33,778 nucleotides of DNA. It comes from Pelagibacteraceae bacterium AG-426-L23. GTDB taxonomy: Bacteria; Pseudomonadota; Alphaproteobacteria; Pelagibacterales; Pelagibacteraceae. Position numbers and translations under genes: made by a program. Below the pieces are notes generated by a model. It had not been told where the DNA came from and did no database searches. It saw nothing but the letters and a program-made list of their open reading frames with translations. The stretch is from contig QCNU01000005.1 in assembly GCA_003213115.1 (NCBI GenBank), positions 1 to 33,778 of the forward strand. Direction: 5' to 3'. The first letter of the stretch is position 1. Each line of letters begins with the position of its first letter. Positions 25,551-27,477 of this stretch are shown here, piece by piece.

Positions 25551-26843
25551 TTAAGCAGCTAAAGCTTGCTTAATATCTCCAATAATATCATCTGGATGTT
25601 CAATACCAATTGAAAGCCTAACATATCCAGGTGTTACTCCAGCAGCTAATAATTCCTCGTCACTAAGCTGACTATGAGTAGTAGTTGCAGGGTGAATCGC
25701 TAAACTTTTAGCATCTCCTATATTTGCAACGTGGTATAGCATTTTTAAATTGTCAATAAATTTAGAACCAGCCTCCCTAGTTCCAACATCCATTCCAACT
25801 AAAGATCCATAACCACCTTTCATGTATCTTTTTGCCCTCTCTTTAATTTCCCCTTGATGATTTGTTGGGTAGATTATATTTTTAACTTTCTTTTCTGTCT
25901 CTAAGTATTTTACAACTTTTTCAGCATTAGCACAGTGTTGTTTCATTCTAAGAGCTACAGTTTCCAAACCTTGTATGATTTGAAAAGCATTGAAAGGACT
26001 AAGCGGTGCTCCTAAATCTCTTAGTAAAACCACTCTAGCTCTAATAGCAAAAGCAACATTAGCTCCAGTTAGTTTAGGAACATCTCTTCCCCAAACTGCT
26101 CCTTTGTAACTTGGATCTTCTTGGTTAAACAAAGGTTGCCTTTTTGGATTTGCCGTCCAGTCAAAATTTCCTCCATCGACAATTATTCCACCGATAGTAG
26201 TTCCGTGACCCCCAATGTATTTCGTTAAAGAGTGCATAACAACCGCCGCACCATGCTCTATTGGTTTGCAAATTACTGGAGAAGCAGTGTTATCTATTAT
26301 TAATGGGATACCATGCTTTTTTCCAATGTCAGCAACTTCTTTAATAGGAAATACTCGAAGATATGGATTAGGACAAGACTCTCCATAGTAAGCTCTTGTT
26401 TTTTCATCCGTTAGCTTTTCAAAGTTTTTAGGATCCGCTGGGTCAGCAAATCTTACTTCAATACCTTGCATACCTAAAGTATTTTTAAATAAGTTTACTG
26501 TTCCACCATATAAATCTGTTGAAGCAACAACATTATCCCCATTTTGTGCAACGTTTTGAATACAAAAAGCTGATGCAGCTTGACCTGAACCAACTGCTAC
26601 CGCAGCTAATCCACTTTCTAAAGCTGCAACTCTCTTCTCAAGAACATCACAAGTTGGATTCATAATCCGTGTATAAATATTACCAAACTCTTTCAAACCA
26701 AATAAGTTTGCGGCAGTCTCCGCATCTTTAAATTGATAAGAGCTAGTTTGATAAATTGGTACTGCAACAGCAGTAGTAGCCGGATCACTTCTGTATTCTC
26801 CTCCGTGTAAACCAATAGTTTCCGGATGTTTAAAGTTAGCCAT
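25551..26843 (-). CDS. metY: O-acetylhomoserine sulfhydrylase (aminocarboxypropyltransferase)
   Basis: PLP enzyme that makes homocysteine from O-acetylhomoserine and sulfide, the direct-sulfhydrylation route to methionine. It is 430 residues, the normal length for MetY and longer than MetB/MetZ types (about 380-400). The PLP lysine is Lys208 in MHSLTKYIGGHG. Other family signatures are PIYQTSSYQFKD (about 29-40), YTRIMNPTCDVLE and the GSGQAASA pocket. A strong AGGAGG lies 6 bases before the ATG and is part of the leader controlled by two SAM-binding pseudoknots (see 26856-27017). The gene starts a long same-strand series that reaches the ETF-QO gene. Confidence 0.96.
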   Translation of the reverse strand: MANFKHPETIGLHGGEYRSDPATTAVAVPIYQTSSYQFKDAETAANLFGLKEFGNIYTRIMNPTCDVLEKRVAALESGLAAVAVGSGQAASAFCIQNVAQNGDNVVASTDLYGGTVNLFKNTLGMQGIEVRFADPADPKNFEKLTDEKTRAYYGESCPNPYLRVFPIKEVADIGKKHGIPLIIDNTASPVICKPIEHGAAVVMHSLTKYIGGHGTTIGGIIVDGGNFDWTANPKRQPLFNQEDPSYKGAVWGRDVPKLTGANVAFAIRARVVLLRDLGAPLSPFNAFQIIQGLETVALRMKQHCANAEKVVKYLETEKKVKNIIYPTNHQGEIKERAKRYMKGGYGSLVGMDVGTREAGSKFIDNLKMLYHVANIGDAKSLAIHPATTTHSQLSDEELLAAGVTPGYVRLSIGIEHPDDIIGDIKQALAA

Positions 26844-26849
26844 TTTTTT

Positions 26850-26855
26850 CCTCCT
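26850..26855 (-). promoter_or_regulatory. Strong Shine-Dalgarno of metY, candidate SAM-V target
   Basis: AGGAGG on the minus strand, 6 bases before the metY ATG. This is one of the few perfect Shine-Dalgarno sequences in the window. It follows the 3' strand of the second pseudoknot by 5 bases, so ligand-stabilised folding could block the ribosome. Confidence 0.85.
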
Positions 26856-26906
26856 TTTTAGTACTTCGACATTATGTCAGGCGTACAATACAGTTCAAAT
26901 GCCTGG
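26856..26906 (-). ncRNA. SAM-V-like riboswitch (second aptamer of the metY leader)
   Basis: An H-type pseudoknot is seen on the minus strand: P1 5' strand CAGGC (26901-26905), a 14-nt A/U-rich loop, P2 5' strand GUAC (26883-26886), P1 3' strand GCCUG (26878-26882), a loop of 13 nt, P2 3' strand GUAC (26861-26864), then UAAAAAGGAGG. The order of strands, the A/U-rich first loop and the CUAAA after P2 match the SAM-II/SAM-V architecture. SAM-V is the class known next to Shine-Dalgarno sequences of methionine-cycle genes in Pelagibacter. Predicted effect: SAM binding stabilises the pseudoknot and hides AGGAGG, lowering metY translation. The class call is by architecture and context, not a covariance-model hit. 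Confidence 0.8.
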
Positions 26907-26923
26907 TTTTATTTTGAAAGTTC

Positions 26924-26952
26924 AAAAAAAAACCACCGGCTAAAGCGGTGGT
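26924..26952 (-). terminator. Intrinsic terminator inside the metY leader
   Basis: Minus-strand hairpin with a 7-bp stem ACCACCG/CGGUGGU (26946-26952 with 26932-26938), a 7-nt loop CUUUAGC and a following run of nine U (26932-26924). It lies between the two pseudoknots, 11 bases after the first. The loop plus adjoining stem bases are complementary over 9 bases to the 3' end of the first pseudoknot, giving a ready antiterminator. Confidence 0.88.
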
Positions 26953-26963
26953 CATATGATCTA

Positions 26964-27017
26964 GTCGCTTTAGCAGGAATTTTTTAAGCGCTCCGCAATT
27001 TGATTTAAATCAGCGCT
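26964..27017 (-). ncRNA. SAM-II-like riboswitch (first aptamer of the metY leader)
   Basis: An H-type pseudoknot on the minus strand: P1 5' strand AGCGCU (27012-27017), a 15-nt A/U-rich loop, P2 5' strand GCGG (26993-26996), P1 3' strand AGCGCU (26987-26992), a loop of about 10 nt, P2 3' strand CUGC (26973-26976, one G-U pair), then UAAAGCG. The same layout recurs in the second aptamer. SAM-II followed by a terminator and then SAM-V at the Shine-Dalgarno is an arrangement reported for Pelagibacter methionine genes. Predicted logic: high SAM locks P2 and frees the terminator; low SAM lets the 3' strand pair with the terminator loop. Confidence 0.75.
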
Positions 27018-27025
27018 ATGTACGA

Positions 27026-27055
27026 ACTATATTAGAATTAGTATAAACAAGTCAA
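27026..27055 (-). promoter_or_regulatory. Candidate promoter of metY
   Basis: Minus strand TTGACT (27050-27055) and, 18 bases on, TATAGT (27026-27031); TAATAT (27029-27034) with a 15-base spacer is an alternative. Transcription would start near 27018-27020, directly before the first aptamer, as expected for a riboswitch leader. It lies back to back with the msrB start at 27106. Confidence 0.6.
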
Positions 27056-27105: not shown

Positions 27106-27477
27106 ATGATCAAATTGAATAAAAATTTAACACCAGAGCAAAATTTCATCTTAAAAGAAGAGGGTACTGAACCACCAGGATCCAGCCCTTTAAATCAAGA
27201 GAAAAGAGAGGGTGATTATTATTGCGCAGGTTGTGGAACTAAACTTTTTAGTTCATCAATGAAGTTTGATAGCGGATCAGGTTGGCCATCTTTTTTTTCA
27301 TCTCTACCTGATGTTTTCGAAACAAAAACTGACACACTTATAGGATACGAAAGAACTGAATATCATTGTAAAAAATGTGGCGGTCATCACGGACATATAT
27401 TCGATGACGGACCAAAACCAACAGGAAAAAGATATTGCAACAATGGTGTTTGCCTGATCTTTAAGCCAAAGAGTTAA
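27106..27477 (+). CDS. msrB: Peptide-methionine (R)-S-oxide reductase
   Basis: Repairs methionine-R-sulfoxide in proteins using thioredoxin, cytosolic. It is 123 residues, the usual single-domain length. Structural zinc ligands are in two CxxC pairs, Cys40/Cys43 (YYCAGCGTKLF) and Cys88/Cys91 (YHCKKCGGHHGHIFDDG). The family core SGSGWPSF is at 57-64. The catalytic Cys is Cys111 in GKRYCNNG. Cys116 close behind it is a possible recycling cysteine (inference). It is divergent from metY across a spacer that holds the metY promoter and riboswitches. No separate promoter was recognised. The next gene starts 12 bases after the stop. Confidence 0.95.
   Translation: MIKLNKNLTPEQNFILKEEGTEPPGSSPLNQEKREGDYYCAGCGTKLFSSSMKFDSGSGWPSFFSSLPDVFETKTDTLIGYERTEYHCKKCGGHHGHIFDDGPKPTGKRYCNNGVCLIFKPKS

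Follow-up and report, generated by a model that had tools for sequence, protein, structure and literature searches.

A probable tandem SAM-II-like/SAM-V riboswitch with a candidate antiterminator in a metY leader of Pelagibacteraceae

We analyzed a stretch of DNA of 33,778 nucleotides (the window), in which the leader of metY lies on the minus strand and consists, from 5΄ to 3΄, of a promoter-like site, a first pseudoknot, a terminator, a second pseudoknot and metY itself (Table 1). An earlier note on this DNA, which did not give the strand, had described two H-type pseudoknots, a terminator with a U run between them, AGGAGG and the ATG of metY after the second pseudoknot, and CUAAA at the 3΄ side of P2 in both; each of these elements was found on the minus strand, and the identity of metY was confirmed with TIGR01326 (551.7 bits; cut-off, 495.1 bits). 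The promoter-like site is shared by relatives, since TTGAC is located 35–39 bases upstream of P1 in all 82 tandem loci identified in the genus. On the other side of the leader lies a divergent msrB, so the intergenic region is common to msrB and metY, two methionine-related genes placed back to back. Because this upstream neighbor is divergent, the metY leader should have its own transcript, and attenuation of that transcript is the only role open to the terminator.

Table 1. Positions of the elements of the metY leader and of the flanking genes in the window
Feature	Position	Strand	Sequence or basis
msrB	27106..27477	+	TIGR00357, above cut-off
Promoter-like site (sigma-70-like)	27026..27055	-	TTGACT, 18 nt, TATAGT; 8 bases upstream of SAM-II P1
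SAM-II-like pseudoknot aptamer	26966..27017	-	RF00521, 20.4 bits (below cut-off); pair counts; model R1, 105.3 bits (not independent, as the window is among the sequences of the model)
P1 of first pseudoknot	27017-27012 with 26992-26987	-	AGCGCU with AGCGCU
Third strand of first pseudoknot	27011-27005	-	GAUUUAA
P2 of first pseudoknot	26998-26993 with 26976-26970	-	includes GCGG (26996-26993) with CUGC (26976-26973)
Ligand strand of first pseudoknot	26974-26969	-	GCUAAA (CUAAA at 26973-26969)
Antiterminator 5΄ arm (candidate)	26966..26974	-	GCUAAAGCG, overlaps ligand-binding CUAAA; 9 contiguous pairs with 26939-26947
Intrinsic terminator	26924..26953	-	GACCACCG-CUUUAGC-CGGUGGU, then U run; sequence pattern
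Terminator stem-loop	26953-26931	-	U run 3΄ of the stem
Antiterminator 3΄ arm (candidate)	26939..26947	-	CGCUUUAGC, top of terminator 5΄ arm and loop; complement of 5΄ arm
SAM-V aptamer	26848..26913	-	RF01826, 77.6 bits, E = 2.7e-11; AGGAGG at 3΄ end
P1 of SAM-V	26905-26901 with 26882-26878	-	CAGGC with GCCUG
P2 of SAM-V	26886-26883 with 26864-26861	-	GUAC with GUAC, then CUAAA
Shine-Dalgarno sequence	26855-26850	-	AGGAGG
Start codon of metY	26843	-	ATG
metY, O-acetylhomoserine (thiol)-lyase, regulated gene	25551..26843	-	430 aa; TIGR01326

The second half of the leader is SAM-V. In the covariance-model scan that the earlier note had proposed, the score of this half (77.6 bits, E = 2.7e-11 for the whole window) was far above the gathering cut-off of RF01826 (41 bits), and it was the sole gathering-level RNA match that the Rfam scan returned in the 33,778 bases. 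The window resembles the known family (RF01826; crystal structure of a metY aptamer, 6FZ0, PMC6061858) in P1, P2, P3, the third strand AUUUGAAC, CUAAA and a Shine-Dalgarno sequence at the 3΄ end of the aptamer with the start codon within about 10 nt, and there is no material difference between the aptamers. The small P3 hairpin (GAC/GUC) had been absent from the earlier note. Alignment of relatives, also proposed there, revealed compensatory changes in both halves of the leader. Among the 82 tandem loci of the genus, two-sided changes were observed in P1 (U-A/C-G) and P3 (G-C/A-U) of SAM-V, and in P2 one pair is A-U in 80 loci, G-U in 1 and G-C in only one.

The first half is SAM-II-like and is not filed under RF00521, so that of the pair named in the earlier note, SAM-II and SAM-V, the latter stands as named and the former in this weaker form. 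When 451 bases were scanned, RF00521 matched at the first pseudoknot with E = 0.023, below its gathering cut-off of 36 bits, and 4 of the 20 genus loci scanned had a match at E ≤ 1 (22.0–26.3 bits), the other 16 having none. In a whole-genome search with the same model, the place of the metY leader was absent from the scored candidates (150 of 244); the best match lay elsewhere (16.3 bits, E = 0.156), and at the loose setting all 14 control genomes also matched, which makes that search uninformative. The model was also silent on a control: at E ≤ 3 it found no match in 23,857 bases that include the SAM-II domain of HTCC1062 bhmT, a stretch larger than the 451 bases scanned in the window, which makes the comparison a rough one. 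That domain is reported to bind SAM with a KD of 1.2 μM (PMC5069961). Because RF00521 misses a domain with reported SAM binding, the score below the cut-off says little about the window, and Rfam was set aside as the sole arbiter of this half.

We compared the window with SAM-II (RF00521; PMC1273637) and found the same single stem with a pseudoknot, a GAUUU third strand, the UUGC/GCUAAA core, a promoter just before P1 and a terminator after P2. The window differs from SAM-II in its score, in that the long P2a of many SAM-II aptamers is not seen, and in the complementarity of its terminator loop to the ligand strand, which was compared within the order Pelagibacterales only. The pairs of P1, P2 and the terminator were then assessed in 44 of the 82 genus sequences against 500 shuffles. 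Pairing was kept in 99.8% of the cells (shuffled mean, 98.1%), and fell to 32–52% when the partners were slid by 1–3 columns. Changes on both sides occurred in 2 of the 19 pairs and in 21 cells, values reached by 3 and 0 of the 500 shuffles, respectively; compensatory changes lie in P1 (UA/CG/UG) and P2 (UA/GU) of the SAM-II-like pseudoknot. One of the five pair measures, the number of further pair types, showed no excess over shuffles (493 of 500), and all pair and locus counts come from related sequences and are not independent events. UUGC and GCUAAA are invariant in the alignment of 82 sequences, and the window has GAUUU, AUUGC and GCUAAA. A side observation concerns the third strand: at the position aligned with SAM-II U10, 60 of the 82 loci have G (GAGUU for GAUUU), mostly together with a C just before UUGC (54 of 82), and 1 locus has C; GAGUU might represent an altered ligand contact.

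A covariance-model search of 101 genomes sampled from the genus gave 84 SAM-V matches, located in 82 of these genomes. All 84 leaders were read, and 82 of them carry the SAM-II-like pseudoknot, the terminator (by pattern) and GCUAAAGCG; the two exceptions (L055 and L073) both come from one genome, G072, with 7% contamination, and stand upstream of a different gene. It is this recurrence upstream of 82 of the 84 SAM-V matches that raises the first pseudoknot above chance. Model R1, which comprises the first pseudoknot and the terminator of 44 sequences including the window, found matches at E ≤ 0.001 in 183 of the 197 genomes sampled across the order (10 of 10 genera), many of them weak (42–58 bits) and including SAM-II-like elements with another terminator or none. 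Of 118 genomes sampled from the family, 67 had SAM-V at E ≤ 0.001, 63 of them with a score over the cut-off, and 11 of 14 genera were represented. A loose pattern for the SAM-V core upstream of metY, applied to the named genome collection, was found in 31 of 80 cases; the 49 without it include some with a coding gene between leader and metY and some without such a leader, the pattern misses some leaders that by eye are SAM-V-like (L289, L293), and these loci were given no weight.

The top of the terminator 5΄ arm together with the loop, CGCUUUAGC, is perfectly complementary to GCUAAAGCG, which forms the 3΄ strand of the SAM-II-like pseudoknot and contains CUAAA; pairing between the two excludes both the pseudoknot and the terminator. 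Folding energies were computed with ViennaRNA, which folds without pseudoknots or ligand energies. Once the 3΄ arm has been made, this antiterminator is part of the minimum-energy fold without ligand, which has –25.1 kcal/mol over the full stretch; compared like for like, P1 with the 9 antiterminator pairs had –19.0 kcal/mol, and P1 with the 7 terminator pairs –17.7 kcal/mol. The antiterminator had P > 0.5 in 74 of the 82 genus loci, and the terminator was the predicted fold in 8.

The arms barely vary within the genus, and the useful evidence is therefore found in diverged genera. In L197 (GCUAAAUAG/CUAUUUAUC), two neighboring pairs are changed on both sides (UAG/CUA for GCG/CGC), and its arms form 8 of 9 pairs with their own partner, compared with 7 and 6 when swapped with the arms of the window. 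ACG with CGU, an A-U for G-C at one pair, was observed in L173, L175 and L168, with mismatches elsewhere; the own partner pairs no better than that of the window in L173 and L175, and worse in L168 and L191. When 17 distinct arm pairs were compared in a fixed register, all 9 positions paired in 5, 8 of 9 in 8 and 7 of 9 in 4. Moreover, an unrelated terminator, GCCCAG-UUUAG-CUGGGC (L199, L204, L205 and L210), again has UUUAGC opposite GCUAAA; L200, which has a relative of this terminator, shows a mismatch opposite GCUAAA, and in L201–L203, L206 and L212 the match to part of the CUAAA box is limited to 5 contiguous pairs. No matching terminator loop was seen in L163, L166, L169, L170 and L213, and L074, L140 and L160 carry the normal GCUAAAGCG. 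With complementarity that is exact in the window and in nearly all of the genus, one clear covariation and a few partial ones, we regard the antiterminator as likely, if not proven.

The earlier note had referred to such a pair in Pelagibacter, a reading that the covariance-model scan and the compensatory changes support, with the first half as SAM-II-like. A tandem is indeed found in 'Ca. Pelagibacter ubique' HTCC1062, but it stands before bhmT (PMC2704228; PMC11508383; PMC9481103), and the metY and mmuM leaders of this strain are listed as SAM-V only, as far as PMC2704228 and PMC5069961 treat them. One of our sampled genomes, G126, is HTCC1062, as 3 of its 4 SAM-V matches fall in the SAM-V intergenic regions given in PMC2704228; the fourth (L156:1464-1528 (-), 1126163-1126227; 57.6 bits) lies directly upstream of an ORF that by eye is OsmC-like. 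The window resembles the bhmT tandem in the order of SAM-II, terminator with U run, SAM-V and Shine-Dalgarno sequence, and in a linker complementary to the CUAAA strand; it differs in its position before metY, in belonging to another genus of Pelagibacteraceae and in P2 (GCGG/CUGC, versus GCAG/CUGC there). Across 120 described SAM-II/SAM-V tandems, a terminator follows SAM-II in every case and the target of SAM-V is the ribosome site; a later count gave 149 tandems, and riboswitches of this kind were termed 'bi-mechanism' (PMC9481103). By analogy, the metY leader of the window very probably works like these published tandems, as another member of the class, to which the present analysis adds a proposed mechanism, the antiterminator suggested by the sequence comparison.

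A 2024 report on the full-length HTCC1062 bhmT RNA found that the linker silences SAM-II, and its authors state that SAM-II and the linker may form an aptamer with an expression platform and that the domain is not fully understood (PMC11508383); the words 'terminator' and 'antiterminator' are absent from its main text. In the numbering of that report, we found that linker positions 66–73 (CGCUUUAG) are complementary to SAM-II positions 45–52 (CUAAAGCG), which include the ligand contacts U46, A47 and A49; U10, U11, A20, U21, U22, U46, A47, A49 and U82–90 all match the sequence under this numbering. On this model, the refolded full-length RNA would sit in the antiterminated ON state, in which case the SAM-II half must act during transcription.

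Taken with the order found here, SAM-II-like pseudoknot first, terminator between and SAM-V at the ribosome site, which is the arrangement of the tandem class, we consider it highly likely that metY is controlled by a tandem SAM-II/SAM-V bi-mechanism riboswitch in its leader, through which high SAM would shut off the gene at two levels; SAM binding by the window copy, the co-transcriptional timing and both gene-control outcomes are what we infer from the sequence. Transcription would start just upstream of the first pseudoknot. If SAM binds the emerging SAM-II pseudoknot, GCUAAAGCG would be held in P2 and the ligand pocket, CGCUUUAGC would remain free, the terminator would form and RNA polymerase would stop. 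Without SAM, GCUAAAGCG would pair with CGCUUUAGC (9 bp), and this antiterminator would use up the terminator 5΄ arm and loop and permit readthrough. In the messages that are read through, the SAM-bound fold of SAM-V would draw in the Shine-Dalgarno sequence and block initiation. The published KD values of SAM-V, 15 μM (metY) and 120 μM (bhmT), versus 1.2 μM for bhmT SAM-II (PMC5069961), would by extrapolation make the transcription checkpoint of the window copy more sensitive than the translation one.

An unlikely alternative is that SAM-V alone functions, preceded by a degenerate SAM-II-like relic and a hairpin that attenuates constitutively. A relic would account for the score below the Rfam cut-off and for the low SAM response in vitro of the SAM-II half within the full-length HTCC1062 bhmT tandem RNA (PMC11508383); however, a relic should drift, whereas the third strand and GCUAAA are conserved, as are P1 and P2, with compensatory changes. 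The isolated and the oligo-released SAM-II half do respond to SAM (PMC11508383), and the silence of the refolded full-length RNA would be explained by the antiterminator. Very unlikely is a two-input gate whose halves sense different ligands, for example through a drifted SAM-II pocket: the frequent G at the U10-aligned position points that way, as the presumed SAM-V equivalent of U10 is in contact with the uridine by which the adenine of SAM is read (PMC6061858), but the equation of U10 with SAM-V U8 is our own, and the window keeps U (GAUUU), together with AUUGC and GCUAAA. Chance pseudoknots in AT-rich leader DNA would suit the weak RF00521 match (20.4 bits, with 16.3 bits reached elsewhere in the genome and the window place missing from the 150 of 244 candidates scored), but are scarcely credible in view of the SAM-V E-value of 2.7e-11 and the recurrence of order and sequence in 82 of the 84 genus matches.

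The tandem riboswitch of the window is one of 27 genus loci in which metY directly follows SAM-V; in the other 55 of the 82 tandems it does not. In such relatives, the GGAG region of SAM-V (SD1) can pair with an anti-SD that is itself able to pair with a second GGAG (SD2) before the next gene. This SD1/anti-SD/SD2 arrangement was found by pattern in 53 of the 55 non-direct loci (e.g. L015, L016, L018 and L040) and in none of the 27 direct loci, the window among them. The next gene in these loci is metY or an ORF that, judged by eye, resembles a homocysteine methyltransferase gene or metE. The longest stem from the GGAG region has at least 7 bp in 55 of 55 non-direct loci, in 16 of which it begins after GGAG, and at most 6 bp in the 27 direct loci. 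Likewise, the two sets differ in the P2a dinucleotide of SAM-V, with CC in all 55 non-direct and CU in all 27 direct loci. Direct and non-direct loci may, however, correspond to two clades, which would make this one contrast and not 82. A leader peptide after SAM-V was also considered for these relatives, in view of an ATG at that place, and is disfavored, since the length of the frame varies while the stem of at least 7 bp persists in all 55 loci: the first frame after SAM-V has 17 codons in 25 of the 55 loci, 21 in 11 and up to 41 or more elsewhere, and only 2 codons in L028 and 4 in L016.

Some leaders listed as SAM-V only also contain an upstream SAM-II-like element. A short-stem SAM-II-like pseudoknot (CCGAUUUG.UCC.AUUGC.GG ... 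GCUAAA) was present in 13 of the 15 printed SAM-V leaders without an R1 match. It stands directly before SAM-V, without an obvious terminator, in the HTCC1062 metY (L154) and mmuM (L155) leaders and in L097, L098, L100–L104, L106, L164, L055 and L073; it is absent from L171 and L189 and, by eye, from the fourth SAM-V leader of G126. When 147 genomes sampled from the family were searched with the bare pattern of the short element, it occurred 14 times, in 13 genomes that belong to one of the 14 genera, 10 at loci that were the source of the pattern and 4 at new ones; all 14 lie just upstream of a SAM-V core, and the reversed control gave 0 matches. In HTCC1062-like leaders, CCGAUU in the 5΄ strand of the short element and AAUCGGU before SAM-V were compared in 17 loci, with longest stems of 5–9 bp, some of which lie elsewhere in the linker, and shuffled linkers were as good in 5 to 709 of 1000 cases in single loci. 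Our literature search, with the founding report (Poiata 2009) outside its scope, returned no published description of the SD1/anti-SD/SD2 layer or of the short element.

These observations can be combined, tentatively and at somewhat less than even odds, in the reading that SAM-II before SAM-V is the usual plan of the family, with expression platforms so far overlooked, in which the linker is an antiterminator paired with the ligand strand, the HTCC1062 metY and mmuM leaders carry short-stem SAM-II-like halves, and SD1 is an anti-anti-SD that frees the downstream site (in about two-thirds of the sampled loci of the genus). Its antiterminator part concerns the window, and the short element and the anti-anti-SD concern relatives. 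If this plan holds, the SAM-V aptamer of HTCC1062 metY, which has been studied by itself, would form only the latter part of a double sensor. The metY leader of the window is a clear example of a single ligand that would be sensed at both levels, and the antiterminator offers a testable reason for the silence of a good SAM-II aptamer in the full-length RNA. SAR11 bacteria, very abundant in the sea, possess few protein regulators. Functional RNAs have been given a central role in the response of SAR11 to low sulfur (PMC5069961). The earlier note had linked the control by SAM to homocysteine as the product of MetY; SAR11 MetY is instead described as making methionine directly from methanethiol (PMC5069961), and feedback by SAM is sensible either way.

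Judging by these side findings, covariance models may undercount SAM-II/SAM-V tandems. Two further arrangements were seen among relatives. In L143, L144, L145, L148, L150, L153 and L194, SAM-II with the same kind of terminator lies upstream of an ORF that by eye is metF-like, with no SAM-V visible in these loci. In L208, L209 and L211, a SAM-II-like pseudoknot is directly followed by eight U upstream of a gene that by eye is metX-like, and here the aptamer itself could be the terminator.
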